Below the pieces are notes generated by a model. That model ran no database searches. It was not told where the DNA came from and was given only the letters and a program-made list of their open reading frames with translations. Both the position numbers and the translations under genes were made by a program. Positions 31,897 through 49,410 of a stretch of DNA of 64,000 nucleotides are shown one piece after another. The DNA is from Dinoroseobacter sp. (lineage in GTDB: Bacteria; Pseudomonadota; Alphaproteobacteria; Rhodobacterales; Rhodobacteraceae): positions 62,001-126,000 of the forward strand of contig JAEPNN010000004.1 in the NCBI GenBank assembly GCA_017643385.1, read 5' to 3'. Each line of letters starts with the position of its first letter. Within the stretch, counting starts at the first letter, position 1.

Positions 31897-32778
31897 TTAC
31901 AGAAGTGAGTCCGGCATATCCTGCTGTGACCGCGCATCAATCCGACGGAACCAGAAGGTTAGAATTGTCGAAGTTATCACGATGAAAAGGGAGTAGAGAA
32001 CAGGAACCGCGAGGATCGCCTGTTGCTCTGGTCCGGAGAATGTCAAAACAACCAATGCTACGGCAAGCGGCCCGTTCTGAATTCCTGTCTCCAGCGCAAT
32101 CGTGCGTGCATTGCGTGGATGCAGTCGCAAGGCTGTCGCAAATACATACCCTGTACCTATACCCAACAGACCAATGCCGATGGCCGAAGCAAAAACGGGC
32201 CACTGTGTAGTGAGCAGAAATTCCCAATTTTGCGGAACCCAACTGACCATAAGGAAAACGATGAAAAATATACCAAGAGCGGAGCCCATGAGTTCTACCA
32301 GTGCGCCAATATTGGCATTCAACTTCCGCAATCCCATTCCAATAGCCACAGGAACAAGCAAGATTACCAGTGTCGCAACGATGTTTCTTGTCGGGATTTC
32401 AATGTCGAGCCCAGCTGCATAGATAACCAGAACCAACGGGATAAGTACGATACCAAAAACCGTTGAGTTCACCGTCATCAAAACTGACAAGGCCAAGTTG
32501 CCCTTGGAAAAATACGTAAAGATGTTGGACGTCGTTCCTCCTGGCATGCAGCCCATGAGCAAAAGGCCAATTTTAATTTCCGTTTCCACCGGGAGTATTG
32601 TTGCAAGCAGGAACGCGACAAAGGGCATGATCCCGTATTGAGATGTAAGACCAATAAAGAGGCCGTAGGGGCGTTTTAATGCCAGCGTGAAATCTTTGAG
32701 GGTCAAAGAGGCGCCCATCCCTAACATGATCACACCGATCATGGCAGCCAGAAGGGCTTGCTGAAATTCTGAAACCAT
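31897..32778 (-). CDS. Bile acid:sodium symporter (BASS) family transporter
   Basis: A 293-residue protein with about nine to ten membrane helices. GASLTLKDFTLALKRPYGLF near residue 23 and LMGCMPGGTTSNIFTYFSKG near residue 75 are family hallmarks; the second corresponds to the Na+/substrate crossover region. Bacterial members import organic acids or related anions with sodium. It lies 3 bp downstream of the acyl-CoA ligase gene, suggesting shared transcription and possibly a carboxylic acid substrate that is then activated with CoA. That link is inference. Confidence 0.9.
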   Translation of the reverse strand: MVSEFQQALLAAMIGVIMLGMGASLTLKDFTLALKRPYGLFIGLTSQYGIMPFVAFLLATILPVETEIKIGLLLMGCMPGGTTSNIFTYFSKGNLALSVLMTVNSTVFGIVLIPLVLVIYAAGLDIEIPTRNIVATLVILLVPVAIGMGLRKLNANIGALVELMGSALGIFFIVFLMVSWVPQNWEFLLTTQWPVFASAIGIGLLGIGTGYVFATALRLHPRNARTIALETGIQNGPLAVALVVLTFSGPEQQAILAVPVLYSLFIVITSTILTFWFRRIDARSQQDMPDSLL

Positions 32779-32781
32779 CTC

Positions 32782-34512
32782 TTATCCCTCCGCCTGCGCG
32801 AGTTCTTCAGTCCGCAAGTCCTTGCGTAGAATTTTCCCAACATTGGATTTTGGCAGATCGTCCCGTAATTCCAGACGCTTAGGGATCTTATACGGGGTCA
32901 AGTGATCGCGGCAATATTTGCGCAGCTGATCAAGCGTCAGTTCCGTTCCATCGGTGACAACAAATGCTTTGACGGCTTCACCGTGTTCGCCATCAGGCAC
33001 ACCGATCACTGCGCTCTCGAGAACACCGGGCATGCCTGCAAGGCAATCTTCGACCTCATTTGGAAACACATTGAAGCCTGATACGATGATCATGTCTTTC
33101 TTGCGATCCACGATCCGGAAAAACCCATCCGGATCAATCAGTCCGATATCCCCCGTGCGGAAAAAACCGTCTTTGGTCATGACTTTTGCAGTCTCATCCG
33201 GCTTTCGCCAATACCCCGCCATAACCTGTGGACCCTTGACGCATATCTCACCCGCCTCTCCGGCTGGTAATTCTACGCCATTATCGTCAAGGATACGAAC
33301 GTCGGTAGACGGCATCGGAAGTCCAATAGTTCCCAAACGGGATGATCCGATCGGATTACCTGTGGCAATAGGTGATGTTTCAGTCAGTCCATATCCTTCA
33401 ACGATCGGGGTGCCTGTCATCTCGAGCCAGCGGTCGGCAACAGCGGAATGAAGCGCCATACCCCCAGCGAACGAGGCTTTCAGGTGTTTTGGCGGGCGCT
33501 CGTAGAACCAAAATTCATTCATCAGCCCGTTAAACAAAGTGTTGACGCCCACAACCCAAGTGACCTTGTAGTTCTCGAACGCGCGTTTAACATTCTGCAG
33601 CGGTCTTGGATTGGGGATGAGCAGGTTGCGATTGCCAAGCCAGAAAAAGCCTAGCAAGTTCAGCGTGAACGCAAGAATATGGTAGGTCGGAATTGCAGTT
33701 AGGACGACTTCTTCCCCCTTCTTCACATGGCTGTCCATCCAGACCATTGCTTGCGCCATGTTCATCACTAAGTTGCCCTGCGTAAGCACTGCACCTTTGC
33801 TGACGCCGGTTGTTCCGCCCGTGTATTGCAGCGCCGCGATAGAAGAATAATCAAGATGTGCGGAATACTCTGAAACTGCAATGTCAGAAGCGCGCGCCAA
33901 ATTCCGACCCTCTTTCAAGGCAGCCGGCAAGCGGGTGTGTTCATGGGTGACAGGATGTATCGCCTTGTCCCAGTATTTCTGGATCAAGCTTATCGTACCC
34001 CGCACCATGTATGGCATGAACTCAGGCACGCGCGTGACGATAACGTTGGGGACTTTGTAATATGAGAATGCCTCATCGAGCTTGTCAGTGAACATGTCCA
34101 CAATCACAAGCGCCTGGGGTTCCGCATCCTTGAACTGCTTCCCCATCTCTTCACCGGTATAGAGCGGGTTAACGTTGACCAGGACACAGCCAGCTTTGAA
34201 GACACCAAACGCTACCACCGGAATGGGCAGAGAATTCGGCGCCTGTAACGCGACGCGATCGCCTTCCTTCAGTCCGAGCGTTTCTCGTAGATAAACTGCG
34301 AAGGCATCTGACATCTCATCAACTTGTGAGAAAGTGAGATCGCCAAACATGCCGTTCGACATAACAACAGTGTAGGCTTTGTTCTTCCCGTATGACTTGG
34401 CAGCGATACGAACGAGATCTGCCAGCGTCTTAAATGGCGGTTCTGGTACGAATTCGGGCACCCCGTCCGGGTAAGACGCCAACCACGGTTTTGGATCACG
34501 ATTTTCGGCCAT
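32782..34512 (-). CDS. Long-chain acyl-CoA ligase (FadD-like)
   Basis: A 576-residue AMP-forming ligase. The P-loop-like A3 motif is LQYTGGTTGVSKGAVLTQGN, A5 is GYGLTETSP, A8 is FFRTGDIGLIDPDGFFRIVDR, and the catalytic A10 lysine lies in LPKSNVGKILRKDL. It activates a fatty or aromatic acid through an acyl-adenylate to the CoA ester. It is upstream of the BASS transporter and 147 bp downstream of a MarR-type regulator gene on the same strand. Confidence 0.92.
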   Translation of the reverse strand: MAENRDPKPWLASYPDGVPEFVPEPPFKTLADLVRIAAKSYGKNKAYTVVMSNGMFGDLTFSQVDEMSDAFAVYLRETLGLKEGDRVALQAPNSLPIPVVAFGVFKAGCVLVNVNPLYTGEEMGKQFKDAEPQALVIVDMFTDKLDEAFSYYKVPNVIVTRVPEFMPYMVRGTISLIQKYWDKAIHPVTHEHTRLPAALKEGRNLARASDIAVSEYSAHLDYSSIAALQYTGGTTGVSKGAVLTQGNLVMNMAQAMVWMDSHVKKGEEVVLTAIPTYHILAFTLNLLGFFWLGNRNLLIPNPRPLQNVKRAFENYKVTWVVGVNTLFNGLMNEFWFYERPPKHLKASFAGGMALHSAVADRWLEMTGTPIVEGYGLTETSPIATGNPIGSSRLGTIGLPMPSTDVRILDDNGVELPAGEAGEICVKGPQVMAGYWRKPDETAKVMTKDGFFRTGDIGLIDPDGFFRIVDRKKDMIIVSGFNVFPNEVEDCLAGMPGVLESAVIGVPDGEHGEAVKAFVVTDGTELTLDQLRKYCRDHLTPYKIPKRLELRDDLPKSNVGKILRKDLRTEELAQAEG

Positions 34513-34659
34513 GACAATCCCCTCCCAAAGATCAACGGGTCTGCGCCCGTTTAACGGTGGAAACTGCCTGCAATCTCGAACTAAGGCCAGATAAATTATT
34601 TACAGATCACAATTTGGGACCCGACGTCATTTTGTCCGATCAGGTCGCAATGTTGCGTT

Positions 34660-35127
34660 TTATCGCAGCAAATGGTCCGCCTCAGCCAACAAAGTGCGCA
34701 ACTGGGTAAACTTTTCCGCACCCATTCTGCGTGAAAGTTGGGCTTCGTAAGCGATCGTTCTTGCCTTGAGGACAGCGACCAAAGACCGTCCTGAATCCGT
34801 AAGGTACAACTCCAAACTTCGTTTATCACTTCTGGACTGCATACGGTCGACGTAGCCTTGCGCTTCCAGTCTGGTCAGAAATGGCGTCAGGCTGGATTTA
34901 TCCATCTGACTTGCACGTGCCAACGATGCCGCCGTTTGACCCGGATTTGCCTCGAGTAACACCAAAAGAAAGAGCTGCCCTGAGGAAATATCGAGACCAT
35001 AAGTTGGAACGTTCAGATTTTCCGAGATGGAGGTCTGAGCCTTACGCAATGCGTAGCACAACAAGTCAGGCAGAATCCCAAAATCGAGATCCTGATCTGG
35101 CATCAACTTTTTTGCGTAGTCTTTCAT
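34660..35127 (-). CDS. MarR family transcriptional regulator
   Basis: A 155-residue protein with the MarR winged-helix core: TAASLARASQMDKSSLTPFLTRLEAQGYVDRMQSRSDKRS, where DKRS is the wing. Such repressors often respond to phenolic or CoA-linked compounds. It lies upstream of and on the same strand as the acyl-CoA ligase and BASS genes, so it may regulate them. This is inference, since no operator was identified. Confidence 0.88.
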   Translation of the reverse strand: MKDYAKKLMPDQDLDFGILPDLLCYALRKAQTSISENLNVPTYGLDISSGQLFLLVLLEANPGQTAASLARASQMDKSSLTPFLTRLEAQGYVDRMQSRSDKRSLELYLTDSGRSLVAVLKARTIAYEAQLSRRMGAEKFTQLRTLLAEADHLLR

Positions 35128-35232: not shown

Positions 35233-37686
35233 TCAGGCGACGGTATCCGCACGCATCTTGCTCGCTTTCGGGTCGAACATTGGCGCCAGACTTGCTTTCG
35301 CAGGCACGCGCCGTCCAGCAACCTCAATCTCAAAAACGCTCATCAGGACCTGTTCTTCGGTCTCTCCTTTGCAGGGGACATAACCCATTGCGACGCTACC
35401 ACCCAGCGCGTGGCCATAATTACCCGAGGTAACCATACTCACGAGCTTTCCGTCTCGGACGATGCCCTCATTGTGGAACGCGAACGCGCTTGGGTCTTCG
35501 AGCAAGAATTGCACCATTCGGCTTTCAAGACCTGCATCCTGTTTTCGCAGCACCGCATCACGGCCAATGAACTCGCCCTTTGCAGGTTTGACGGCAAAAC
35601 CAAGTCCCGCTTCCAGAACATGATCTTCGTCTGTGATGTCATGTCCGAAGTGGCGGAAGGCCTTTTCGATGCGGCAACTGTCCATTGCGTGCAGCCCGAC
35701 AAGTTTCAGATCGTGATCGCGTCCGGCGTCCCAGATCGTCTCGAAAATGTGAGCGGCTTGTTCCGTGGGCATATAAAGTTCCCAGCCAAGTTCACCGACA
35801 TAGCTGACGCGATGCGCTCGTACGAGCCCCATGCCCATCTCGATTTCCTTGGCGTAGCCAAAGGGGTGGTTTGCATTAGAGAAATCGTGCGGGCTGATTT
35901 CTCCCAGAACGTTGCGTGTTTTCGGCCCCATGATGCACAAGACCGCCTCGGATGAAGTCACGTCTGTGACCACCACGAAATCATCACCTATGTGACGTTT
36001 CAGCCAAGACATGTCCCGGACGATTGTCGCGGCTGGAACAACAAGCAGGTAGGCGGTTTCAGAAAGTCTGGTGACTGTAAGATCGCATTCAATCCCGCCA
36101 CGCGAATTCAACATTTGCGTATAGACGATGCGCTCGGCCTTTACGTCCATGTTTGCGCCACACATCCGCTGCAAAAATGCGCAAGCGTCCCGGCCTTCAA
36201 CGCGAATTTTCCCAAAAGACGACATATCGTAAAGGCCAACGCCTTCACGAAGCGCCATGTGTTCGGCCTTTTGGTTTTCAAACCAATTCTGACCGCTCCA
36301 GTCATATTGATATTCCGCGACCTGGCCTTCATTGGCGAACCAGTTGGCGCGTTCCCAACCAGCAGTTTCCCCCATGACTGCCCCACGCGCTTTCAAATGC
36401 TCGTGCAATGGGCTGCGACGTACGCCACGGGAGGTCTCAGGCTGTCGGAATGGATAGTGGTCGGCGTAAAGCAAGCCCAAGGTCTCACTGACGCGTTCCT
36501 CGAGATACGTCCTGTTGCGCTGGAATGGCTGCGCCCGCCGAATATCGCTCTCCCAAAGATCGAACGGGGCCTCGCCATCGTTGATCCATTGTGCCAGCGC
36601 CATCCCTGCCCCACCAGACGAGACGATTCCAACAGAGTTATAGCCTGCCGCGACCCAGTAGCCCCGAAGATTTGGGGCCTCGCCGAGGTAGTATTGATCA
36701 TCTGGTGTGAAGCTTTCGGGGCCATTGAAAAATGTATGGATCCCCGCCGATTCAAATAGCGGCATACGATGCATGGCCTTTTCGAGGATCGGCTCGAAAT
36801 GGTCGAAATCTTCAGGAAGTGCGTCGAACTCAAAGTCCTCCGGGATGCCGTTCATACCCCACGGCTTAGCGCGCTGTTCAAAAGCACCAAGCATCATCTT
36901 GCCGGCATCTTCCTTGTAGTAGGCCTGTTCATCCGGGACACGCAAAACGGGAAGCCGGGACAGGCCTTCGACAGGCTCAGTCAACAGGTAGAAGTGCTCG
37001 CAGGCATGCAAAGGAAGCGTGACGCCGGATTTCGCAGCAAGTTCGCGCCCCCACATGCCACCGCAGTTTATAACGACATCCGCGTCGATCTGGCCAGTTT
37101 CAGACCCCTTCTCCCACATGACGCCTGTGACACGGGATCCGTCATCTAGGACCTCGGTGACCTTCACGCCTTCAACAACCTTGGCACCCTTCATGCGCGC
37201 GCCCTTTGCGAGCGCCATGGCAATATTTGCTGGGTCACATTGTCCGTCTGCAGGCAAATGAACCGCGGAGGTGATGTCACCTGTTTCCAAATGGGGGTAG
37301 AGCGCCTTGACTTCGTCCGGACCGATCTCGTGTGCTTCGATATCAAAGACATGCGCCAGCGTTGCCTGACGCAAAATTTCTTCCTTGCGATGCTCGGTTA
37401 GGGCAACGGTAATAGAGCCATTCTGGCGCATACCTGTTGCGACACCAGTTTCTTCTTCAAGACGGGTGTAAAGATCGACAGAATATTTCGCGAGGCGTGT
37501 CAGGTTCTGACTGGACCGCAATTGACCAATCAGACCAGCCGCATGCCAAGTTGTGCCGCAGGTCAACTGCTTACGCTCCAACAGAACAACATCGGTCCAG
37601 CCGAGCTTGGCAAGGTGGTAAGCCACCGAGCAGCCAGAAACGCCGCCACCTATGATGACGGCACGTGCCTTGGTTGGAAGGGTCAT
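35233..37686 (-). CDS. FAD-dependent sarcosine/dimethylglycine dehydrogenase-like protein with GcvT domain
   Basis: An 817-residue fusion. The FAD domain begins AVIIGGGVSGCSVAYHLAKL, with TTWHAAG holding the likely flavinylated His48. The C-terminal tetrahydrofolate-binding GcvT domain shows FLQRMCGANMDVKAERIVY and SYVGELGWELYMP. Enzymes of this type remove N-methyl groups and give 5,10-methylene-THF. It is the fourth gene of the leftward run tpa, FAD/GcvT gene, homocysteine methyltransferase, this gene (42 bp gap). Context suggests an N-methylated taurine as well as the classical sarcosine or dimethylglycine as candidate substrates. Confidence 0.85.
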   Translation of the reverse strand: MTLPTKARAVIIGGGVSGCSVAYHLAKLGWTDVVLLERKQLTCGTTWHAAGLIGQLRSSQNLTRLAKYSVDLYTRLEEETGVATGMRQNGSITVALTEHRKEEILRQATLAHVFDIEAHEIGPDEVKALYPHLETGDITSAVHLPADGQCDPANIAMALAKGARMKGAKVVEGVKVTEVLDDGSRVTGVMWEKGSETGQIDADVVINCGGMWGRELAAKSGVTLPLHACEHFYLLTEPVEGLSRLPVLRVPDEQAYYKEDAGKMMLGAFEQRAKPWGMNGIPEDFEFDALPEDFDHFEPILEKAMHRMPLFESAGIHTFFNGPESFTPDDQYYLGEAPNLRGYWVAAGYNSVGIVSSGGAGMALAQWINDGEAPFDLWESDIRRAQPFQRNRTYLEERVSETLGLLYADHYPFRQPETSRGVRRSPLHEHLKARGAVMGETAGWERANWFANEGQVAEYQYDWSGQNWFENQKAEHMALREGVGLYDMSSFGKIRVEGRDACAFLQRMCGANMDVKAERIVYTQMLNSRGGIECDLTVTRLSETAYLLVVPAATIVRDMSWLKRHIGDDFVVVTDVTSSEAVLCIMGPKTRNVLGEISPHDFSNANHPFGYAKEIEMGMGLVRAHRVSYVGELGWELYMPTEQAAHIFETIWDAGRDHDLKLVGLHAMDSCRIEKAFRHFGHDITDEDHVLEAGLGFAVKPAKGEFIGRDAVLRKQDAGLESRMVQFLLEDPSAFAFHNEGIVRDGKLVSMVTSGNYGHALGGSVAMGYVPCKGETEEQVLMSVFEIEVAGRRVPAKASLAPMFDPKASKMRADTVA

Positions 37687-37728
37687 AATGCGCGCTCCCT
37701 CAAGTGAGCAGAAGTAAACTGAACAGAT

Positions 37729-38649
37729 CTAGACAATGCTGTGGCCTGCCGAACGAAGACGCTCGGCAATTGCTGCGATGTGGGCTGGTCCGGTTTCACA
37801 GCATCCGCCCACGATCGTTGCCCCCTGTTCAACCCATTTCATCGCGTGGTCGGCATATATCGCAGGGCCCATGTCTTCCCGGGCTTTCAGGCTTTCGGCT
37901 GTAGCCCCGCCATCAATGAAGGCCTTAGCAATCATTGTGAAAGCATTGCCAAAAGCACCAATGGGGCGCCCTGACTTACTGAGGGCTTCCAGTGCTGCGG
38001 GCATCGCTTCGGGAACCGAGCAATTGGCGAGAACAGCATCCGCATCCCTTGCAACCTCGACTGCTTCGCTCAGGTTTTCACCGGACCGGAGCTTGCTGCC
38101 GTCAGCGTCATCGACTGTAAAAGAGAGCCAGACAGGTCGATCAGACGTGCGCCCTGCGGCCAGACACGCGCGCGCAGCTTTCACCGAGGCAATTGTTTCG
38201 AAAAGGATCAGGTCTGATCGCGGCGCCAAAAGGCTCACGACTTCGGCGTACATAGGCGTTGCGACATCAAAATCAGGATGAATATCGGCGCGATAACTTG
38301 CCCCCAGTGGTCCAACCGACCCGGCAATACGACACCGCCCACGAACGGCTTCAGCCTCATCCATCGCAGCGGTCTGGAGGGCTTCGAACTGATGCTCCAT
38401 ATCAGGCAGGTCAACATCATCACTTGCATAGTGATTGCTGCTGCCCCCTCGGAGGCGGTCACGGTGCACTGCATAGCTGTTCGCCGTCGCGACGGTCGCA
38501 CCTGCATCGGCATAGTCTTTGTGGATCGCCGCGACCAAACCCGGCATATCAATCATGACCTGCGTGGACCATAGTGGCGCTGCAGGCTTGCCGGAGCGGC
38601 GGATCAACTCCTGCCCCATGCCCCCGTCGAGAAGGGTAATCTCACCCAT
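37729..38649 (-). CDS. Homocysteine S-methyltransferase family protein
   Basis: A 306-residue zinc methyltransferase of the MmuM/BHMT family. It starts with TLLDGGMGQELIRR. The zinc cysteines are in LANCSVPEAM (about residue 208) and VGGCCETGPAHI (about 281). Family members move a methyl group from a betaine or S-methylmethionine to homocysteine, forming methionine. It lies between two FAD/GcvT dehydrogenases, with gaps of 15 and 42 bp, which is the arrangement expected for stepwise demethylation of a trimethylated compound. The methyl donor is not evident from sequence. Confidence 0.88.
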   Translation of the reverse strand: MGEITLLDGGMGQELIRRSGKPAAPLWSTQVMIDMPGLVAAIHKDYADAGATVATANSYAVHRDRLRGGSSNHYASDDVDLPDMEHQFEALQTAAMDEAEAVRGRCRIAGSVGPLGASYRADIHPDFDVATPMYAEVVSLLAPRSDLILFETIASVKAARACLAAGRTSDRPVWLSFTVDDADGSKLRSGENLSEAVEVARDADAVLANCSVPEAMPAALEALSKSGRPIGAFGNAFTMIAKAFIDGGATAESLKAREDMGPAIYADHAMKWVEQGATIVGGCCETGPAHIAAIAERLRSAGHSIV

Positions 38650-38664
38650 TAGAGTGCCACTCTC

Positions 38665-41106
38665 TTAGGCCCGCATGCGTGCGTTGTCGGGATCCCAGAG
38701 CGGCATCGCAACAACCTTTGCAGGGCAACGTTCACCAAAGATCTCGACCTCCAATTCGGTTCCGACTTCCGCATGTTCTGCCTTGACCACACCAAGTGCA
38801 ATAGAGCACCCAACCCGGTAACCATAAGCACCCGATGTTGCCTCACCAATCACAGCACCATCTTTCCAGATGGTCGACATCGGCGGCGTATCTGCAATCG
38901 GGGCGTCTACCATAAGGCTGACGGATGCTTTCGAAGGTCCCCGCTGGAGTTCAACCTGAAGGGCGGCCTTTCCGGGGAAGTCCTGATCCTTGCCGAGACG
39001 GACAAAGCGATCAAGGCCCGCCTCGAAGAGCGTGTAGTCAGTGGACAGATCGCCCTTCCAGGTTTTGTAACCTTTCTCGATCCGCATTGCGTTCAGAGCG
39101 TACATTCCGAACGGTTTCGCACCTTTTGCGAGTACGGCTTCATAAATCGCTGGAATTGCGTCCATGGATGCGTGGACCTCCCAGCCAAGTTCACCTGCAA
39201 AGCTGACACGAGCCAGACGGGCCGGCTGACCTGCGACGGTGGCCTCCTGTAGAGAGAGCCACGGCAAGGACAGATCACCATCGCTGATTGCGGACATCAG
39301 CTCGCGAGACTTCGGACCGCTCACGATCAGGGTGCTCAGCTCGGTAGTCCGATCAATCAGGGAAATTCCGTCTGGCTTGGTGGCCAGCAACAATTCGCGG
39401 TCATGCCACTGTGCAACGGCCGCCGTAATTAACGTGAACCGATCTTCACCTGAGCGCATCACCGACATTTCCGTGACCAAACGTCCACGGGTATCGGCGA
39501 AATAGGCAAGGTTCATGCGCCCGACTTTAGGCAATGCACCTGTAATCTGGCTGCGCAGCCATTCAGCGGCGCCTTCACCCTCAATCTCAAAACGCGAGAA
39601 GCCGGGCAAATCGAGGACACCCACGCCATCACGGACCGCCTCAACCTCGGCTTTCACCCGGGGTTCCCAAGGCCCGTTGCGCCCCCAGGTTTCCGTGGCT
39701 TCAAGCGATGTGTCATCGCCTGGCTCGGCAAACCAGTTTGCCCGCTCCCAGCCGTTATACGCGCCCATCTGCCCGCCCAAGGCACGAACTTTGGCGTCAA
39801 CTGGCGAGAGCTTTCTATCCCGACCAGCAGGCCATTCATGATGCGGGAAGTGCATCGCATATTCGTGGCCATAGACCTCGATCGCTTTGTCGATGCAGTA
39901 TTGTTCGTCTGTGTAGTCCGTATAGCGGCGCGGATCGACGGCCCACATGTCCCATTCAGTTTCACCGTGAATGATCCATTCTGCGGCAACCTTGCCAGCG
40001 CCGCCCCCTTGCGTAATCCCGAAGGTAAACACACACGCTTCATACGCGTTTTTCACACCCGGCATGGGACCAATCAATGGCAGCCCGTCAGGGGCATAGG
40101 GAATAGGTCCGTTGATGACGCGACCGACGCCGGCCGTGCCAAGCAATGGAACGCGCGCCATGGCGTCTTCCATATACCATTCGAGGCGTTCGAGATCATC
40201 GGGATAAAGCTGGAAGCTGAAATCATCCGGCATCGGATCGTCAGGCGTGATCCAGTGCGCCTTGCAGTTGCGCTCATACGGTCCGAGGTTCAGGCCGTTT
40301 TTGTCCTGTCTTAGGTAATAAGACGTATCAACGTCGCGAAGTAGCGGAACCTTGCGCCCATTCGCTTCAGTCCATTCCTTCAGTTCAGAAATCTCATCGG
40401 TAAGAAAATACTGATGCGACATGACCGCCATTGGAACAGTACGACCACCATATGGCTTGAACCATTCGCCCACGCGCTGCGCATAATAGCCCGCCGCATT
40501 CACGACCTTTTCGCAGCGAATATCGCCCTTATCCGTGTGAACAATCCATTCATCGCCCGATCGGCTAACGCCCGTTGCGGGACAGAACCGTTCGATCCGC
40601 GCGCCCATCTGGCGAGCCCCTTTGGCAAGCGCCTGTGTCAACTGGGCTGGATCAATATCCCCATCATCCGGATCCCACAGCGCACCTTCAAGATCATGGG
40701 TCTCTATAAAGGGATACGCTTCCTTGATATCCGATAAAGACATCATCTCCAGATCGAGACCTTGGTAACGCCCCATACCGCGCGCGCGTTCGAACTCCAT
40801 CATCCGATTACGCGAATGCGCCAGCCGGATTGATCCGGTGACGTGGTAATTCATCGGATAATCAACTTCTTCGGCAAGCCCCGCATAAAGGCTCAGCGAA
40901 TAACGCTGCATGTTCATCACCGCCCAAGATGTCGAAAAGGACGGGCAATTGCCGGCGGCGTGCCATGTTGATCCTGCCGTCAGCTCGTTTTTTTCAAGCA
41001 GCACACAATCGGTCCAGCCTTCCTTGGCCAGATGATACAGCGTAGAGGTCCCGACAACCCCCCCACCGATAATGACGACGCGTGCGGAAGTCGGAAAATC
41101 TGCCAT
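38665..41106 (-). CDS. FAD-dependent dimethylglycine dehydrogenase-like protein with GcvT domain
   Basis: An 813-residue fusion with RVVIIGGGVVGTSTLYHLAK and STWHAAG (His49, probable covalent FAD site). The C-terminal GcvT half has FAGELGWEVHASM and binds tetrahydrofolate by family knowledge. It differs clearly from the paralogue at 35233-37686, so it is not a recent duplicate. It lies 29 bp downstream of tpa and 15 bp upstream of the homocysteine methyltransferase gene, so it is probably expressed from the tpa promoter. Substrate is inferred as an N-methyl amine. Confidence 0.86.
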   Translation of the reverse strand: MADFPTSARVVIIGGGVVGTSTLYHLAKEGWTDCVLLEKNELTAGSTWHAAGNCPSFSTSWAVMNMQRYSLSLYAGLAEEVDYPMNYHVTGSIRLAHSRNRMMEFERARGMGRYQGLDLEMMSLSDIKEAYPFIETHDLEGALWDPDDGDIDPAQLTQALAKGARQMGARIERFCPATGVSRSGDEWIVHTDKGDIRCEKVVNAAGYYAQRVGEWFKPYGGRTVPMAVMSHQYFLTDEISELKEWTEANGRKVPLLRDVDTSYYLRQDKNGLNLGPYERNCKAHWITPDDPMPDDFSFQLYPDDLERLEWYMEDAMARVPLLGTAGVGRVINGPIPYAPDGLPLIGPMPGVKNAYEACVFTFGITQGGGAGKVAAEWIIHGETEWDMWAVDPRRYTDYTDEQYCIDKAIEVYGHEYAMHFPHHEWPAGRDRKLSPVDAKVRALGGQMGAYNGWERANWFAEPGDDTSLEATETWGRNGPWEPRVKAEVEAVRDGVGVLDLPGFSRFEIEGEGAAEWLRSQITGALPKVGRMNLAYFADTRGRLVTEMSVMRSGEDRFTLITAAVAQWHDRELLLATKPDGISLIDRTTELSTLIVSGPKSRELMSAISDGDLSLPWLSLQEATVAGQPARLARVSFAGELGWEVHASMDAIPAIYEAVLAKGAKPFGMYALNAMRIEKGYKTWKGDLSTDYTLFEAGLDRFVRLGKDQDFPGKAALQVELQRGPSKASVSLMVDAPIADTPPMSTIWKDGAVIGEATSGAYGYRVGCSIALGVVKAEHAEVGTELEVEIFGERCPAKVVAMPLWDPDNARMRA

Positions 41107-41135
41107 GTTGCGTTGATCTCTATCTGTTTAGGGGG

Positions 41136-42518
41136 TCAGGTACCGAAAACGCGGCCGAGCGCGGCGTCTACCGCGGCGGTGATTTCATCAATATCGCTTT
41201 CGGTCGATATCAGAGCCGGGCTGAAACACAATGTGTTGTTGAAGCCCGGAAGCGACCGGTTCGTTGCACCAATGATTACGCCTTGCGCCATGCAATCAGC
41301 GACGACGGCCTGCACCATCTTTTCAGGCGCGGGTTCTTTGGTCGATCTGTCGCTAACCAGCTCAGCACCGCAGAACAGTCCAAGGCCACGAACCTGTCCG
41401 ATCACTTCATGCTTTTCAGCAAGCGTATTGAGGTTCGCCACAAGCCGCCCACCCATCGCGGTGGTGTTCGCCAAAAGCCCTTCTTCCTCGATGATATGCA
41501 TGTTCTCGATGGCCGCTGCAGGACCAGCAGTACAACCGCCAAATGTCGAAATATCACGGAAGAAATTCAGCGGATCAGACGCATCATCCTTAAACATCTC
41601 GAAAACGTCTTCGGTGGTTACCATGCACGCGATCGCTGCGTAGCCTGAAGCCACACCCTTCGCCATCGTGACGAAATCAGGCTGGATCCCAAACTGCTGG
41701 TATCCAAACCAAGTACCGGTCCGCCCGACACCGCAGACAACTTCATCGATGTGCAGGAGTATCTCATACTTCTTACAGATCTCGCCGACACGCTGCCAAT
41801 AACCCGCAGGCGGCGTGATGACACCTCCACCGGCTGTGACAGGCTCAAGGCAAAGAGCCCCAACTGTATCAGGTCCCTCGCGAAGGATCACCGCCTCGAT
41901 CTGGTCCGCGGCCCACTCGCCATAATTTTCTGTCTCGACCTGCGCGCGATATTCGAGGCAGTGCGGAACTTCCACAAATCCAGGTGCAAATGGCCCGTAC
42001 TGAGCATTACGTTCTTTCTGCCCGCCCGCCGACATCGTCGCGAGGGTAGAGCCATGATAGTCGCGCTCGCGGTAAAGAATCTTGTGCTTTTTGCCGTCGT
42101 AACGCTTGTGCGCAATCTGACGGATCATCTTGAACGCTTTCTCATTCGCCTCAGAGCCTGAGTTTGTGTAGTAAACTCGGCTCATCCCTGGCATCTTGTC
42201 GATCAGCATGGACGCAAATCGTGACCCGGGGATGGATCCGGCCGAGTTTGCGAAATAGTTCATCGTGATCAGCTGGTCCCGAACAGCATTTGCGATGCGT
42301 TCACGGCCATACCCAACATTTACCGTCCAAACGCCGCCAGAAACGCCATCAAGGTGCTCTTTGCCAGTCGCGTCCCAAACACGCATGCCGCAGCCTTCAA
42401 CGATGATCCGCGGATCCGTTGTTTCCAGTGCTTTATGCTGCATGAGGTGATGCCAAAGATGGGCGCGATCAGCCTCGATTACTTCGGTCAAGTCGTTTGG
42501 ATTAAACGTCGTATTCAT
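41136..42518 (-). CDS. tpa: Taurine-pyruvate aminotransferase
   Basis: A 460-residue class III PLP aminotransferase. SGGVWTVNVGYGRERIANAV and YYTNSGSEANEKAFKMIRQIA match Tpa, and the PLP lysine is in VTMAKGVASGY near residue 285. It converts taurine and pyruvate into sulfoacetaldehyde and alanine. AGGTGATGAA precedes the ATG. It is divergent from tauABC across a 285 bp promoter region with a TauR-box match, and leads a leftward operon of N-demethylation-type genes. Annotation as Tpa is strengthened by tauABC, tauR and xsc alongside. Confidence 0.93.
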   Translation of the reverse strand: MNTTFNPNDLTEVIEADRAHLWHHLMQHKALETTDPRIIVEGCGMRVWDATGKEHLDGVSGGVWTVNVGYGRERIANAVRDQLITMNYFANSAGSIPGSRFASMLIDKMPGMSRVYYTNSGSEANEKAFKMIRQIAHKRYDGKKHKILYRERDYHGSTLATMSAGGQKERNAQYGPFAPGFVEVPHCLEYRAQVETENYGEWAADQIEAVILREGPDTVGALCLEPVTAGGGVITPPAGYWQRVGEICKKYEILLHIDEVVCGVGRTGTWFGYQQFGIQPDFVTMAKGVASGYAAIACMVTTEDVFEMFKDDASDPLNFFRDISTFGGCTAGPAAAIENMHIIEEEGLLANTTAMGGRLVANLNTLAEKHEVIGQVRGLGLFCGAELVSDRSTKEPAPEKMVQAVVADCMAQGVIIGATNRSLPGFNNTLCFSPALISTESDIDEITAAVDAALGRVFGT

Positions 42519-42681: not shown

Positions 42682-42691
42682 CTGGACTTAA
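42682..42691 (+). promoter_or_regulatory. Probable TauR box in the tpa-tauA promoter region
   Basis: CTGGACTTAA is an exact match to CTGGACYTAA, the direct repeat I recall for TauR in Rhodobacter capsulatus. A weaker copy, TTGGCCCTAT, lies 24 bp on at 42706-42715. The site is about 110 bp before tauA and 165 bp before tpa, so it could control both directions. Confidence 0.65.
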
Positions 42692-42803: not shown

Positions 42804-43814
42804 ATGAAACTTTCAACAAAGCTTAAAGGTGCTGTCGCAACAGCAGCGCTTGTATGCTCTGCACAAGCTGCCGCCGCAGGTGGGCATCTTGAAGAAATCA
42901 CTGTGGCTTATTTCCTCGAATGGCCAATGCCATTCCAGTATTCAAAAGTTCAGGGCACCTATGAAGAAGCAATGGGTGTCAAAATCAACTGGGTCAGCTT
43001 TGACACCGGTACGGCGATGTCCGCAGCAATGGCGTCGGGCGACGTACAGATCGCGGTCAGCCAGGGTGTTCCACCTTTCGTAGTAGCAACCTCTGCAGGT
43101 CAGGACCTTCAGGTGCTCGACGTAGCAGTTTCTTACGCTGACAACGACAACTGTGTGGTCGCTGAAGCACTGGAAATCGACGCCAGCTCCGCTGGCGAAC
43201 TTGCCGGCAAGAAGGTCGGTGTTCCAATCGGTACCGCCGCGCATTACGGCTTCCTGAAGCAGATGGAGCACTTCGGTGTTGATATCGGCACCATGGAGAT
43301 CGTTGACATGGCGCCACCAGAAGGTGCGGCAGCCTTTGCACAGGGCAACCTGGACATGGTTTGCGGCTGGGGTGGCTCGCTGCGTCGTATGCTTGAGCAC
43401 GGCAACGTTCTTCTGACCGGTGCTGAAAAGACCGAGCTTGGCATTCTTGTGTTTGACGTGACTTCGGCCCCAACCGACTTCATCGCAGAAGAAAGCGAAC
43501 TGGTTTCGAAGTTCCTCGCCGTAACCGCAGAAGCGAATGAGATGTGGAATTCTGGCGCGAACACCGCCGAAATGCTGCCTGTCATCGCAAAAGACGCAGG
43601 TATGGACGAAGAGGCAACGGCTCAGACCATGGCAACCTTTGTATTCCCAAGCGTTGAAGATCAGCTGTCGGCAGGATGGCTCGGCGGTAACGCTCAAGAG
43701 TTCATGAAGGGCGTTGCAGGCGTATTCGTGAACGCGGGTTCGATTCCATCGGCACGAGACAGCTATGAAGGTGCCGTGAACGCCGGACCATTGGCAGACG
43801 CTTCAAACATGTAA
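42804..43814 (+). CDS. tauA: Taurine ABC transporter substrate-binding protein
   Basis: A 336-residue periplasmic protein. A signal peptide (KLKGAVATAALVCSAQAAAA) precedes the NMT1/SsuA-like fold: VAYFLEWPMPFQYSK and VSQGVPPFVVATSAGQDLQVL. It captures taurine for import. CGGGAGAG lies before the ATG. It is first of tauABC and separated from tauB by a hairpin that likely reduces downstream expression. Confidence 0.93.
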   Translation: MKLSTKLKGAVATAALVCSAQAAAAGGHLEEITVAYFLEWPMPFQYSKVQGTYEEAMGVKINWVSFDTGTAMSAAMASGDVQIAVSQGVPPFVVATSAGQDLQVLDVAVSYADNDNCVVAEALEIDASSAGELAGKKVGVPIGTAAHYGFLKQMEHFGVDIGTMEIVDMAPPEGAAAFAQGNLDMVCGWGGSLRRMLEHGNVLLTGAEKTELGILVFDVTSAPTDFIAEESELVSKFLAVTAEANEMWNSGANTAEMLPVIAKDAGMDEEATAQTMATFVFPSVEDQLSAGWLGGNAQEFMKGVAGVFVNAGSIPSARDSYEGAVNAGPLADASNM

Positions 43815-43883: not shown

Positions 43884-44690
43884 GTGTCCGAACTCATAAT
43901 CGACAATATTTCTATGCGCTTTGACCTGCCGAATGGTTCTTCCATTCAGGCTCTCAAAGACGTCAGCCTTGACCTTAAGGAAGGTGAGTTGATGTCGGTG
44001 CTTGGACCATCAGGATGTGGCAAGACCACTTTGCTGAACATCATCGCGGGTTTCCTTGCGCCAACCGAAGGCAAGATTGAAATCAACGGACATACGGTAA
44101 CCGGCCCTGCACCGGAACGCGGAATGGTGTTTCAGAAGGGCGCTCTTTTTGAGTGGATGAGCGTGCGAGAAAATGTGGATTTTGGCCCGCGCATGAAGCG
44201 CATGCCGAAAGCCGAGCGCGACCAAATCGCGAACCATCTGTTGGAAACTGTCGGACTGGCCGACTTTAAAGAAAAAGCCGTCTACGAACTATCAGGCGGC
44301 ATGCAGCAACGCGTGGCCTTAGCCCGTTGTCTGGCGAACGATCCCGACGTCATTTTGATGGATGAGCCTCTTGGCGCATTGGACGCGCTGACACGCGAAA
44401 AAATGCAAGGCCTTGTTCTGAAGCTTTGGAAAGAAACCGGCAAAACGGTGATCCTGATTACGCACTCTGTTGAGGAAGCGCTGTTGCTGGGCGAACGGCT
44501 TGTCGTGATGGCGCCGAGACCCGGTCGCATTCACAAAGAGTACCAACTTCCATTCGCCGAAAAAGGCGTCGCGGCGGACCTGCGCGAAGTTAAGAAAGAC
44601 CCGGAGTTTGGTGAGAAACGGGATGAGATCTTGTCGATGATCTGGGAAATGGAAGAAGAGATTATGGGTCGTGCGGAGGATGCAGTATGA
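43884..44690 (+). CDS. tauB: Taurine ABC transporter ATP-binding protein
   Basis: A 268-residue ATPase. Walker A is GPSGCGKTTLLN, the signature LSGGMQQRVALARCL, Walker B VILMDEPLGALDA and the H-loop ITHSVEEALL. The start is GTG after AGGGGAA. It overlaps tauC by 4 bp and powers taurine uptake. The family also serves alkanesulfonates; taurine is assigned from the neighbouring tpa, tauR and xsc. Confidence 0.93.
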   Translation: MSELIIDNISMRFDLPNGSSIQALKDVSLDLKEGELMSVLGPSGCGKTTLLNIIAGFLAPTEGKIEINGHTVTGPAPERGMVFQKGALFEWMSVRENVDFGPRMKRMPKAERDQIANHLLETVGLADFKEKAVYELSGGMQQRVALARCLANDPDVILMDEPLGALDALTREKMQGLVLKLWKETGKTVILITHSVEEALLLGERLVVMAPRPGRIHKEYQLPFAEKGVAADLREVKKDPEFGEKRDEILSMIWEMEEEIMGRAEDAV

Positions 44691-45952
44691 GTGTTCTTAT
44701 CTTCTATATCCTTCTGTTTGTAATCGCATATCTCGCGGTTGGTCTGGTTCGTCGCCAAATGCACGCGACAACAGACTTTACCAGCTTGAAGACAGTAACC
44801 TTTGGGGATGAAAGTGCGGTTACGCCGGATCGCACAGCCTCCATCATTTCAGTCCTATCGATCTTCCTGATCTGGGGGGCGTTTACTGGATCAAGCATCA
44901 TGCCGATCCATGTCCCCGGGCCATATACCGGAACGACTGAGTTCACGTACACTGCTCAGAACGCAGCAGGTGATACCGATGATGCAACGGTCACAGTGAT
45001 CGTCCACCCCTTAGAAAATGACCCTGAGGAATTGGATATCGAACCCGGCGCTGGATTTGCAAAAAATGACTTTGATACCGTCGCAGCCTGGCGAAGCACT
45101 CTGATCCGCGCTCACAAGAATGATGAAGGCAACGACGAAGACGGCTACGCTGTCATCAGCGTGGACGGAAAGCCAATTGCGCCAGGAGAAACCGTTCGGG
45201 TTACGGATGGTAGTGTGACAATGACCCCCAAGGGTTCACTGAACTTCGCCCCGGCAAAGGGCATGCAGATGGAACCGATTTGGCTTCCTTCGCCCGAAGC
45301 AGTGCTTGCCAGATTTATTGAAATCGCAACCGAAGGTTACCAGAATTTCACGCTCTGGCAGCATCTTGGCTGGTCGCTTCTTCGTGTTCTTGCAGGCTTT
45401 GCGATCGGTTCGCTGGTCGGTATTCCCCTCGGCTATGCCATGGGCTTGTCCGGTTGGTTCCGCGGTTGGTTTGACCCGATCGTTGAATTTATGCGTCCGG
45501 TACCACCCCTTGCTCTGATCCCGCTTGTAATCATCTGGTTTGGTATCTGGGAAACTGGCAAAATTATCCTTCTCTTCCTTGCTGCACTCTGGATCATGAC
45601 AATTGCAGCTCGTGCAGGAGTGTCTGGCGTGAATATCTCGAAGATTCACGCGGCATATTCACTCGGAGCAAGCAAGTGGCAGATCATGCGCCATGTCATC
45701 GTTCCGAATTCGCTGCCTGAGATCTTCACGGGTGCGCGTGTAGCTATGGGTGTATGTTGGGGCACGGTTGTCGCTGCAGAACTCGTTGCAGCGCAAAAAG
45801 GTGCAGGTATGATGATCATTGCAGCATCGAAATTCCAACTCACTGACATTGTGATTATGGGGATCGTATTAATTGGTATCATTGGTTACGGCATCGATAT
45901 CTTGATGCGCCGTGCCGAAAAGATCCTTGTGCCTTGGAAAGGCCGTTCCTAA
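44687..45952 (+). CDS. tauC: Taurine ABC transporter permease with large periplasmic insert
   Basis: A 421-residue permease, against about 270-280 for ordinary TauC/SsuC. Residues 1-22 and about 50-72 are membrane helices. Residues about 75-205 form a hydrophilic insert with an Ig/cadherin-like look (TEFTYTAQNAAGDTDDATVT). The usual permease follows from about 215 (LGWSLLRVLAGFAIGSLVG), with the EAA loop ISKIHAAYSLGASKWQIMRH that contacts TauB. The insert may help dock TauA; this is inference. Confidence 0.9.
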   Translation: MSVLIFYILLFVIAYLAVGLVRRQMHATTDFTSLKTVTFGDESAVTPDRTASIISVLSIFLIWGAFTGSSIMPIHVPGPYTGTTEFTYTAQNAAGDTDDATVTVIVHPLENDPEELDIEPGAGFAKNDFDTVAAWRSTLIRAHKNDEGNDEDGYAVISVDGKPIAPGETVRVTDGSVTMTPKGSLNFAPAKGMQMEPIWLPSPEAVLARFIEIATEGYQNFTLWQHLGWSLLRVLAGFAIGSLVGIPLGYAMGLSGWFRGWFDPIVEFMRPVPPLALIPLVIIWFGIWETGKIILLFLAALWIMTIAARAGVSGVNISKIHAAYSLGASKWQIMRHVIVPNSLPEIFTGARVAMGVCWGTVVAAELVAAQKGAGMMIIAASKFQLTDIVIMGIVLIGIIGYGIDILMRRAEKILVPWKGRS

Positions 45953-46061: not shown

Positions 46062-47549
46062 ATGTCCAATCTGATGATACCTGCGGACTCCATATTTCTT
46101 GACGACGAGCGTGACGGCACGCTCCAGCAAAAGATTCAGCGCCTTATCGCAGAAGGTATTTTGTCTGGGCGGTTCCGGTCTGGCGAGCGGATGCCCTCAA
46201 GCCGCAAATTGGCAGAGCATTTGGGTGTCTCGAGGATCACCGTAACAATTGCCTACACCAACCTAGTCGCAGACGACTATTTGGTCGCGCGCGGGAGATC
46301 AGGGTATTTTGTCTCGGAGACCGCGCCCAAAACACCAGCATTCACGCTTGTCCCACCCAGCACCGTTGCAGAGATCGATTGGGGTCGTTTCCTCGCCCAT
46401 TCTTTTGATCAAGAAGAAAAACTGGTGCGCCCAGAGGATTGGCTTAGGTTTCCCTATCCGTTTATCTACGGTCAGGCAGATCCGGAGCTGTTGGACCATC
46501 AGAACTGGCGACTTTGCGCCTTGCAGGCACTGGGGCAGAAAGACTTCGAAGCGCTGACCTCAGATTATTACGAGCGCGATGACCCGAAGTTGATCGAGTA
46601 CATCTTGCGCCACATTCTCCCGCGACGAGGGATTACTGCAGCGCCCGAAAACATTCTGATCACAATGGGTGCACAAAATGCGCTTTGGATGACAACGCAG
46701 TTACTCATGACGCAACGCCGTACTGCGGTCCTAGAAACCCCCAGTTATCCGGGATTACGTTGGATCCTCGAGAATGCCCGATGCAAAACCCACGCTGTTG
46801 AGGTCGATGAGGAAGGTTTGAATCCTGAGGACTTGCCTGACGACATCCATGCGCTTTTCGTAACGGCAAGCCATCATTGCCCAACCAATGTCACGATGCC
46901 CCTTTCACGTCGAAAGCAATTGCTGAAGCGCGCGGCTGAGCAGGGCTTCGTTATTGTCGAAGACGATTATGAATTTGAAATTGCCTACCAAAAGTCTCCG
47001 CTCCCAGCACTCAAGAGCCTCGATGAAAATGGATCGGTCGTCTATGTCGGCTCGTTCTCTAAGTCGCTGTTTCCAGGGCTACGCCTCGGGTACGTCGTGG
47101 CTTCCAGCGCCTTTGTTCAGGAGGCGCGTGCTCTGCGCGCTTTGGTTTTGCGCCATCCCCCGGGACATATCCAGCGGACAGCAGCCCATTTTCTGTCGCT
47201 CGGGCACTATGACGCCCAAGTCAACCGGATGGGAAAGGCCTACAGCAATCGTAGAATTGAAATGAAACGGGCGATCGCGAAATATGGGCTCGAAATCGCT
47301 GGTGGTTCACAATCAGGTGGCTCCAGTTTTTGGATGCGCGCACCAGATCATGTGGACACGAAAGACCTCGCGTTGAGGCTGCACAAACATGGCGTTGTGA
47401 TCGAGCCAGGCCATGTCTTCTTTGTAAATCCAGATGCCCCCAGGAATTTTTATCGTCTGGCCTATTCCTCAATCCCGGTAAAACGAATTGAGAAGGGAAT
47501 CGAACTCATTGCGCAGGAAATCGCGCTATCTGGACCGATCCAAGCGTAG
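46062..47549 (+). CDS. tauR: Taurine-responsive MocR-type regulator
   Basis: A 495-residue regulator. The N-terminal GntR-like winged helix (LQQKIQRLIAEGILSGRFRS, then KLAEHLGVSRITVTIAYTNL) is followed by a class I aminotransferase-like domain with the PLP lysine in VGSFSKSLFPGLRLG. TauR activates taurine genes in Rhodobacter capsulatus. The ATG at 46062 gives the normal start; the frame is open 150 bp further into the tauC terminator. It is placed between tauABC and xsc, with box-like sites around it. Confidence 0.92.
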   Translation: MSNLMIPADSIFLDDERDGTLQQKIQRLIAEGILSGRFRSGERMPSSRKLAEHLGVSRITVTIAYTNLVADDYLVARGRSGYFVSETAPKTPAFTLVPPSTVAEIDWGRFLAHSFDQEEKLVRPEDWLRFPYPFIYGQADPELLDHQNWRLCALQALGQKDFEALTSDYYERDDPKLIEYILRHILPRRGITAAPENILITMGAQNALWMTTQLLMTQRRTAVLETPSYPGLRWILENARCKTHAVEVDEEGLNPEDLPDDIHALFVTASHHCPTNVTMPLSRRKQLLKRAAEQGFVIVEDDYEFEIAYQKSPLPALKSLDENGSVVYVGSFSKSLFPGLRLGYVVASSAFVQEARALRALVLRHPPGHIQRTAAHFLSLGHYDAQVNRMGKAYSNRRIEMKRAIAKYGLEIAGGSQSGGSSFWMRAPDHVDTKDLALRLHKHGVVIEPGHVFFVNPDAPRNFYRLAYSSIPVKRIEKGIELIAQEIALSGPIQA

Positions 47550-47637: not shown

Positions 47638-49410
47638 ATGAAAATGACAACCGAAGAAGCCTTCGTAAAAGTACTGCAGCGACACGGAATTCAGCATGCC
47701 TTTGGGATCATTGGGTCTGCCATGATGCCAATTTCGGATTTGTTCCCAAAAGCAGGTATTACCTTCTGGGATTGCGCCCATGAGGGCTCTGCGGGCTTCA
47801 TGTCCGACGGTTACACACGAGCAACCGGCAAGATGTCCATGATGATCGCCCAGAATGGCCCCGGCATCACCAACTTCGTTACAGCCGTGAAAACCGCATA
47901 CTGGAACCACACGCCTTTGTTGCTGGTCACACCGCAGGCTGCGAACAAAACCATTGGTCAGGGCGGCTTCCAGGAAGTCGAACAGATGGCTCTTTTCGAG
48001 GATATGGTCGCGTATCAGGAAGAAGTACGCGATCCATCTCGGGTTGCAGAGGTTCTTACCCGCGTGATCAGCCAGGCAAAACGTTTGTCAGGCCCGGCTC
48101 AGCTTAACATACCACGTGACTTCTGGACACAAGTTGTCGATATCGAAATCCCTGACCCAATCGATTTTGAACGGTCCTCTGGCGGCGAGAACTCCGTTGT
48201 TAAAGCCGCAGAGCTGCTGTCGAACGCGAAAAACCCGGTCATTCTTAACGGTGCTGGCGTGGTTTTGTCGGACGGTGGTATTGAGGCGTCAAAGGCCCTT
48301 GCTGAACGTCTCGATGCGCCAGTTTGCGTTGGCTATCAGCACAACGACGCTTTCCCAGGCAACCATCCGCTTTTTGCAGGTCCGCTTGGTTACAACGGGT
48401 CGAAAGCCGGTATGGAACTGATCAAGGAAGCCGACGTTGTTCTAGCCCTCGGTACACGTCTTAACCCATTCTCGACACTTCCCGGCTACGGAATGGATTA
48501 CTGGCCCGCCGACGCAACCATTATTCAGGTCGACATTAACCCAGACCGGATCGGTCTGACCAAGAAGGTCACGGTCGGTATCGTTGGCGACGCCGCGAAA
48601 GTCGCAACCGGCATCCTGAATGGCCTGAGCGACGATGCAGGCGATGCAGGCCGCAAAGAGCGCAAAGAAAACATCGCACTTAAAAAATCAGCTTGGGCGC
48701 AGGAGCTGACTTCACTGACCCACGAACAGGATGATCCGGGCACAACCTGGAACGAACGTGCTCGTGAGGCCAAACCTGACTGGATGAGCCCTCGCATGGC
48801 TTGGCGCGCGATCCAGTCCGCATTGCCGCGTGAAGCGATTATCTCGTCTGATATTGGCAACAACTGTGCCATCGGCAACGCATACCCAGATTTCGACGAA
48901 GGTCGTAAATACCTTGCACCCGGCCTGTTTGGACCCTGCGGATATGGTCTTCCAGCCATCGTTGGCGCAAAGATCGGTCAACCAGATGTTCCAGTGGTCG
49001 GCTTTGCCGGAGATGGCGCATTCGGCATCGCGGTCAATGAACTGACGGCTATCGGTCGCGGAGAGTGGCCGCCCATCACGCAGATCGTGTTCCGCAACTA
49101 CCAGTGGGGTGCTGAAAAGCGGAACTCTACACTTTGGTTCAAGGATAACTTCGTCGGCACCGAACTAGATGAAGAAGTATCCTACGCCGGTATTGCTCAG
49201 GCCTGCGGCCTGAAAGGTGTTGTTGCCCGGACCATGGATGAACTGACCGAGGCGCTGAACCAGGCGATCAAGGATCAAATGGAAAATGGTGTAACCACCT
49301 TGATCGAAGCCATGATCAATCAGGAACTTGGTGAACCCTTCCGTCGCGATGCGATGAAGGAGCCGGTTCAGGTCGCTGGCATCGACGCCGCGGATATGTG
49401 CGTCCAGTAA
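47638..49410 (+). CDS. xsc: Sulfoacetaldehyde acetyltransferase
   Basis: A 590-residue thiamine-diphosphate enzyme. The N-terminal DCAHEGSAGFMSDGYTRATG contains the catalytic glutamate. The ThDP motif is GFAGDGAFGIAVNELTAIGR, and the Xsc-specific FRNYQWGAEKRNSTLWF is present. It converts sulfoacetaldehyde and phosphate to acetyl phosphate and sulfite, completing taurine breakdown after Tpa. CCGGAAGGAG precedes the ATG. A phosphotransacetylase gene often follows xsc; here a terminator follows instead. Confidence 0.95.
   Translation: MKMTTEEAFVKVLQRHGIQHAFGIIGSAMMPISDLFPKAGITFWDCAHEGSAGFMSDGYTRATGKMSMMIAQNGPGITNFVTAVKTAYWNHTPLLLVTPQAANKTIGQGGFQEVEQMALFEDMVAYQEEVRDPSRVAEVLTRVISQAKRLSGPAQLNIPRDFWTQVVDIEIPDPIDFERSSGGENSVVKAAELLSNAKNPVILNGAGVVLSDGGIEASKALAERLDAPVCVGYQHNDAFPGNHPLFAGPLGYNGSKAGMELIKEADVVLALGTRLNPFSTLPGYGMDYWPADATIIQVDINPDRIGLTKKVTVGIVGDAAKVATGILNGLSDDAGDAGRKERKENIALKKSAWAQELTSLTHEQDDPGTTWNERAREAKPDWMSPRMAWRAIQSALPREAIISSDIGNNCAIGNAYPDFDEGRKYLAPGLFGPCGYGLPAIVGAKIGQPDVPVVGFAGDGAFGIAVNELTAIGRGEWPPITQIVFRNYQWGAEKRNSTLWFKDNFVGTELDEEVSYAGIAQACGLKGVVARTMDELTEALNQAIKDQMENGVTTLIEAMINQELGEPFRRDAMKEPVQVAGIDAADMCVQ

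Follow-up and report, generated by a model that had tools for sequence, protein, structure and literature searches.

The locus described here raises the question of why genes for putative N-demethylating enzymes stand directly behind a gene for taurine-pyruvate aminotransferase. It lies on contig JAEPNN010000004.1 of a Dinoroseobacter sp. (positions 62,001 to 126,000; the window, i.e., the whole stretch of 64,000 nucleotides that was analysed). Read leftward from the divergent side, tpa is followed by FG1, HMT, and FG2, with recomputed gaps of 29, 15, and 42 bp, and this set is divergent from tauABC-tauR-xsc (Table 1). FG1 and FG2 encode FAD/GcvT fusions, and HMT encodes a protein of the homocysteine S-methyltransferase family. 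The four leftward genes, with the coordinates, families, and gaps given in a preliminary description of this DNA, were reproduced exactly by open reading frames (ORFs), Pfam, and the recomputed gaps. Its interpretation, namely that the demethylases feed taurine to Tpa, was supported in part. The recurrent and independent linkage of FG1 and FG2 to taurine genes and the occurrence of FG2 alone beside tpa speak for it, whereas the substrate claim is less secure, as a glycine betaine reading also fits rhizobial loci and a published assignment (PMC3141670). Stepwise N-demethylation of dimethyl- and methyltaurine, and perhaps of taurobetaine, to taurine is in our view the best explanation of the gene data, and a reasonably probable one.

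Linkage of FG2 to taurine genes was found from coordinates, and the regions were then read; one case, in genome G257, was recognised only by reading its region. Each search covered the best 150 matches, and the counts are therefore lower bounds for FG2 and for the control alike. Among the matches listed, tpa, xsc, or tauR was found at a distance of at most ~12 kb from 14 of the 149 other FG2 orthologues, whereas genome size would predict about one (binomial ~1e-11). The control was FG3, a paralogue encoded elsewhere in the window, for which ~1 of 150 among the matches listed was linked (in G198; Fisher 7e-4 vs. FG2). Both statistics were computed with 14/150, i.e., with the window included in the total. 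For FG1, a figure of 12/150 was set aside in favour of that for FG2, as just 8 of the 12 are among the matches listed. On maximum-likelihood trees the taurine-linked state changes 9 times for FG2 and 11 times for FG1, at least seven changes being forced by supported branches on each. Judged from these trees, the linkage was apparently gained or lost repeatedly and independently. The demethylase genes are thus tied to taurine genes beyond chance and independently, as expected for a methyltaurine pathway. That the linkage is peculiar to the window's genome was rejected by the family-wide coordinates, and simple conservation in relatives was rejected as well, since most of them keep the module at its ancestral site. 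A chance or passenger co-transfer devoid of metabolic meaning is very improbable: the linkage is indeed absent from most genomes, but the changes forced on each tree, the near-zero gaps in several arrangements, and the enrichment over both chance and the paralogue control argue against it.

Co-occurrence was determined in 296 Rhodobacteraceae genomes, one per genus (295 genera). Orthologues of FG1 were present in 178, of FG2 in 194, of xsc in 189, and of tpa in 210 of them; FG1 and FG2, each found in ~60-65% of the sample, are nearly constantly paired (together in 173 genomes). The association of FG2 with xsc has an odds ratio of 20 (166/28/23/79, P 3e-27, kinship ignored), compared to a lower value of 8 for xsc with tpa. 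FG3 is nearly a core gene (263 of the 296).

The linked loci take several forms. FG2 adjoins tpa at a distance of 4 bp in G281, where FG1 had no match, of 37 bp in G257, and of 132 bp in G168. In the latter genome an MttB-like methyltransferase gene accompanies FG1 at another place, so that the putative pathway divides precisely where the tertiary-amine step gives way to the secondary-amine step. Both genes accompany tpa in G285 (FG2-5-FG1-19-tpa, gaps in bp) and G003 (FG2/FG1-59-tpa). An XRE regulator gene is included in G153 (FG2/FG1-43-XRE-66-xsc-111-tauR), in G099 (FG2-FG1-XRE running into tauR-tpa), and in G239 and G259, where FG2-FG1-XRE is followed by a soeCBA-like three-gene molybdo-oxidoreductase set, presumably a sulfite dehydrogenase, and then by xsc-tauR. 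The order in G034 is tauABC-FG1-FG2. A plasmid of Paracoccus seriniphilus (NZ_CP067131) carries XRE-cupin, tauABC (63/79/69% to the window's tauABC), FG1, FG2, etfBA, folD, and purU, facing xsc; going by their predicted functions, genes for uptake, demethylation, electron transfer, one-carbon oxidation, and C-S cleavage are gathered there in one place. On the trees, the window's FG2 clusters with its counterparts from further tpa-linked operons (G003, G285, and G281), and its FG1 with ancestral-site copies such as that of Litoreibacter. As the two fall in different subclades, the window's operon is a mosaic. Additionally, in G225 a different FAD/GcvT protein, ~40% identical to FG1, is encoded downstream of tpa (L181 4313-6900), and beyond tauR there is an XRE-FG1-MttB-FG2 module.

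The taurine genes of the window are those of a taurine dissimilation operon by the family score of xsc (911.6 bits vs. the TIGR03457 cut-off of 676.4), the neighbouring tpa, tauABC, and tauR, and a TauR operator. TauA matched TIGR01729 with 147 bits (6.7e-43), which is under the cut-off of 304 bits. The same arrangement of tpa with tauABC, tauR, and xsc is also kept in taurine loci without FG1 and FG2 (L168-L177). The 285-bp region between tpa and tauA contains an exact match, CTGGACTTAA, to the operator consensus CTGGACYTAA from Rhodobacter capsulatus (PMC5320631). Furthermore, 10-mers with one mismatch were found upstream of tauR (46026) and of xsc (47553); matches with at most one mismatch number six in the whole window vs. 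a mean of 3.2 by chance, only a mild excess. The MocR regulator had an above-cut-off NCBIfam match to PdxR. This name was not adopted, and TauR was kept because of the gene's position and the operator. No terminator-like site or hairpin was found in the three gaps of tpa-FG1-HMT-FG2. Given the short gaps, the operator match, and the terminator-free spacers, a single operon under TauR control is plausible, and the four genes would then be cotranscribed. The system described for R. capsulatus (PMC5320631) has tpa, tauABC, tauR, xsc, and the operator motif in common with the window, which differs from it by three added demethylation genes behind tpa; the words methyltransferase, dimethylglycine, sarcosine, and FAD-dependent are absent from the text of that paper. 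Behind FG2, on the same strand, genes for a MarR regulator, an acyl-CoA ligase, and a transporter could be cotranscribed with it.

Table 1. Features of the window discussed in the text (positions in the 64,000-nucleotide stretch).
Feature	Position	Strand	Description
tpa	41136-42518	-	Class III aminotransferase; family and position point to taurine-pyruvate aminotransferase; 460 aa; Aminotran_3; heads the leftward operon
FG1	38665-41106	-	Predicted dimethylglycine dehydrogenase-type FAD/GcvT fusion; 813 aa; DAO + FAO_M + GCV_T + GCV_T_C
HMT	37729-38649	-	Homocysteine S-methyltransferase-family protein; 306 aa; S-methyl_trans, PF02574 3.1e-59
FG2	35233-37686	-	Predicted sarcosine dehydrogenase-type FAD/GcvT fusion; 817 aa; DAO + FAO_M + GCV_T + GCV_T_C
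TauR-type operator	42682-42691	+	Predicted; exact consensus match between divergent tpa and tauA
tauA	42804-43814	+	Taurine ABC substrate-binding protein; best NCBIfam match TIGR01729 (taurine_ABC_bnd)
tauB	43884-44690	+	ABC ATPase; ORF and position; orthologous to tauB of taurine loci
tauC	44687-45952	+	ABC permease; ORF and position; orthologous in taurine loci
tauR	46062-47549	+	MocR-type regulator; GntR + Aminotran_1_2; between tauABC and xsc
xsc	47638-49410	+	Sulfoacetaldehyde acetyltransferase; TIGR03457 above cut-off
marR, fadD-type acyl-CoA ligase, BASS-family transporter	31897-35127	-	105-bp gap between FG2 and marR
FG3	14415-16913	+	Full-length FAD/GcvT paralogue; preceded by a cluster of xanthine dehydrogenase and nucleoside-type ABC transporter genes
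TauE/SafE-like permease	63201-63953	+	Recognised by eye; may export sulfite; distance to xsc 14 kb
IS3-type transposase ORF	61807-62658	-	Recognised by eye; located past the taurine region, before the window's right end

FG1 and FG2 both show the complete single-chain domain set of FAD-GcvT N-demethylases. The best PDB match of FG1 was rat dimethylglycine dehydrogenase (DMGDH; 9.7e-163), and the human enzyme was near as well. When aligned with DMGDH from rat and human and with dimethylglycine oxidase (DMGO), FG1 showed a DMGDH-like Glu at the position of the GcvT Asp of DMGO, and FG2 retained the aligned catalytic Asp. Both proteins contain a WHAA flavinylation-type motif, with the His for covalent FAD, and the active-site His/Tyr region. 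Going by what is known of the family, FG1 would be of the DMGDH type, acting on a tertiary amine, and FG2 of the sarcosine dehydrogenase (SARDH) type, acting on a secondary amine. The two thus resemble the DMGDH, DMGO, and SARDH fusions in full-length architecture, flavinylation-type motif, and folate-domain residues. Unlike these, they are encoded in or beside taurine dissimilation operons, and the substrate proposed for them is a sulfonate with an additional methylene between the nitrogen and the acid group. A further FAD/GcvT paralogue of the same genome (L067 8536-10949; C23:170035-172449) lies between kynureninase-like and sulfolactate/dihydroxypropanesulfonate-type genes (suyAB- and hpsN-like), which may tie such enzymes to sulfonates a second time. 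Unrelated to these, a 710-aa ORF of the genome consists mostly of GTKGTKGT repeats with a collagen-like look (L068 6507-8639, contig 10).

Several findings weigh against methyltaurines as the substrates. No feature telling a sulfonate from a carboxylate substrate was present in the FG1 and FG2 sequences analysed. About 90% of the genomes with FG1 and FG2 keep them apart from taurine genes, mostly at the ancestral site. FG1 and FG2 adjoin each other in nearly all relatives, and in 80 named loci the usual order is XRE-cupin regulator, FG1, HMT, FG2 at one conserved chromosomal site; none of the 80 has tpa, tauA, or xsc within 10 kb. Because most loci occupy this taurine-free site, FG1-HMT-FG2 is an old roseobacter gene set, and the taurine-linked arrangement of the window is in the minority. 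The genome search for linkage to tpa thus turned out both ways for the preliminary description, which had itself named absence from related genomes as a sign against its proposal: the linkage recurs, but only in a small part of the family. HMT is present in just 4 of ~16 taurine-linked loci. To our knowledge, the only described bacterial route for N-methyltaurine is that of N-methyltaurine dehydrogenase, which differs from the one proposed here. It was reportedly described by Weinitschke et al. in 2006 for Alcaligenes faecalis and Paracoccus versutus, and is said to release methylamine and sulfoacetaldehyde directly. The substrate class is the same; in the proposed pathway, methyltaurine would be demethylated to taurine and the methyl groups kept in the folate pool.

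Also on this side are the names and nearest structures of FG1 and FG2, which are those of dimethylglycine enzymes, and the assignment of the same trio in Roseobacter litoralis. There, RLO149_c039090-039110 encode SARDH, homocysteine methyltransferase, and DMGDH side by side and were read as degrading glycine betaine, a growth substrate of that strain; a link to tpa is unmentioned in that paper (PMC3141670). Furthermore, Rhizobiaceae orthologues (64-75% identity) adjoin genes for carnitine 3-dehydrogenase and a Rieske oxygenase (L213 and L214). Owing to the rhizobial neighbours and the published assignment, we retain, as unlikely yet worth keeping in mind, the alternative of a glycine betaine pathway in which HMT takes the first methyl group, FG1 serves as dimethylglycine dehydrogenase, and FG2 as sarcosine dehydrogenase; the genes would then have been placed beside taurine genes as taurine and betaine are co-occurring osmolytes under shared control. 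R. litoralis failed, however, to grow on dimethylglycine (PMC3141670), and glycine betaine demethylation in R. pomeroyi is carried out by MtgBCD, encoded elsewhere (PMC12478193). Genes for GbcA-like proteins, ProXVW, soxAB, and carnitine or choline dehydrogenase were found near FG1/FG2 in 0-3 of 127 Rhodobacteraceae loci, whereas tpa, xsc, tauA, and tauR recur there, although this set was partly chosen for taurine linkage. FG2 alone beside tpa, and tauABC rather than a betaine transporter heading FG1-FG2, are likewise hard to account for in this way.

The rhizobial loci also count against a substrate restricted to methyltaurines in another respect. Operons of the type ABC transporter-ETF-FG1-FG2-AptA (L207 9548-15786, L212 6551-12794, and L220 9001-15239) point to beta-alanine betaine or another N-methylated beta-amino acid as the compound broken down. 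The aminotransferase of these operons was considered as a Tpa and rejected (30% identity, AptA equivalog). Other Rhizobiaceae orthologues of FG1-FG2 adjoin MttB. With carnitine dehydrogenase and Rieske oxygenase, AptA, or MttB as rhizobial neighbours, the FG1/FG2 family probably serves several N-methyl amino acids. FG1 and FG2 might accordingly be broad N-methyl amino acid demethylases whose substrate is set by the neighbours: methyltaurines with Tpa and Xsc, N-methylated beta-alanine with AptA, and methylglycines with carnitine and betaine genes. One orthologous pair with three kinds of partner would be explained by this, and beta-alanine is the carboxylate analogue of taurine. As the orthologues are only 64-75% identical, their specificity may differ, however, and we consider breadth of this kind improbable, more so than the assignment to glycine betaine.

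The weakest part of the proposed methyltaurine pathway is the HMT step. The nearest structure to HMT is E. coli MmuM (2.1e-19), and its sequence contains the zinc-cysteine motifs NCS and GGCC known from homocysteine methyltransferases. The protein scored below the curated cut-offs of both BHMT (PRK07534; 63.7 vs. 338 bits) and MmuM (PRK09485; 137.7 vs. 215 bits), and a plain BHMT/DMGDH/SARDH triad was rejected for this reason. The suggestion that HMT removes the first methyl group is thus unproven, the gene being missing from most taurine-linked copies. As HMT occurs in so few of these, it is safer to predict dimethyl- and methyltaurine as substrates. In FG1/FG2 modules, HMT and MttB-like genes tend towards mutual exclusion (P 0.009), the pattern expected of alternative first-step enzymes. 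In R. pomeroyi, the first methyl group of glycine betaine is removed by the corrinoid system MtgBCD, and further substrates were predicted for its many MtgB paralogues (PMC12478193). Compared to MtgBCD(E) with its split methionine synthase (PMC12478193), FG1/FG2 modules share MttB/MtgB-like (PF06253) and PF02574 candidates for the first step. In contrast, the window's operon contains neither a corrinoid protein gene nor a PF06253 gene, and its product is apparently taurine instead of glycine. Six MTTB (PF06253) genes of the genome all lie outside the tpa operon. Its other PF02574 gene (L198) is of the MtgE/BHMT family and passes the PRK07534 cut-off with 589.8 bits, and several heterotetrameric sarcosine-oxidase-like genes are present as well. 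With its own MtgE/BHMT gene, the six MTTB genes, and the sarcosine-oxidase-like genes, the genome does not obviously need the tpa-linked set for glycine betaine.

According to the proposed methyltaurine pathway, taurobetaine (N,N,N-trimethyltaurine), taken up like its relatives through TauABC, would have its first methyl group removed by HMT in the window's genome and by an MtgB/MttB-type corrinoid methyltransferase in relatives. FG1 would then oxidise an N-methyl group of N,N-dimethyltaurine, converting the tertiary to the secondary amine, methyltaurine. One step later, FG2 would act likewise on N-methyltaurine, the secondary amine becoming primary and free taurine being provided for Tpa. From both enzymes, ETF would receive the electrons and tetrahydrofolate, via the GcvT domain, the one-carbon unit. 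Tpa would then transaminate the taurine, and Xsc would split the product into sulfite and acetyl phosphate.

Methylated taurines do occur as metabolites of seaweeds. Their occurrence in marine algae, as put forward in the preliminary description, is borne out by the red alga Galaxaura rugosa, from which the whole series of N,N,N-trimethyl-, N,N-dimethyl-, and N-monomethyltaurine is known along with taurine (PMC10538540). In the literature searched, which covers few subscription journals, no paper was found on bacterial demethylation of methyltaurines to taurine, or on methyltaurine and roseobacters. As FG2-tpa, FG2-FG1-tpa, and FG2-HMT-FG1-tpa all exist in living genomes, a stepwise backward extension of the pathway is attractive but unproven. 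Our tentative hypothesis, which we hold with less confidence than the demethylation itself, is that a pathway from trimethyl- via dimethyl- and methyltaurine to taurine extends across the Rhodobacteraceae, was built backwards from Tpa enzyme by enzyme (retrograde extension), and connects the methyltaurines of red algae with sulfite, methionine, and the one-carbon units of folate. If methyltaurines are indeed brought down to taurine by these enzymes, the gene set, which occurs in well over half of the Rhodobacteraceae genera sampled and currently carries glycine betaine annotations, would be reassigned to sulfonate and one-carbon cycling. Annotations as 'dimethylglycine' or 'sarcosine' dehydrogenase, which serve as markers of betaine turnover in marine metatranscriptomes, would then need correction.

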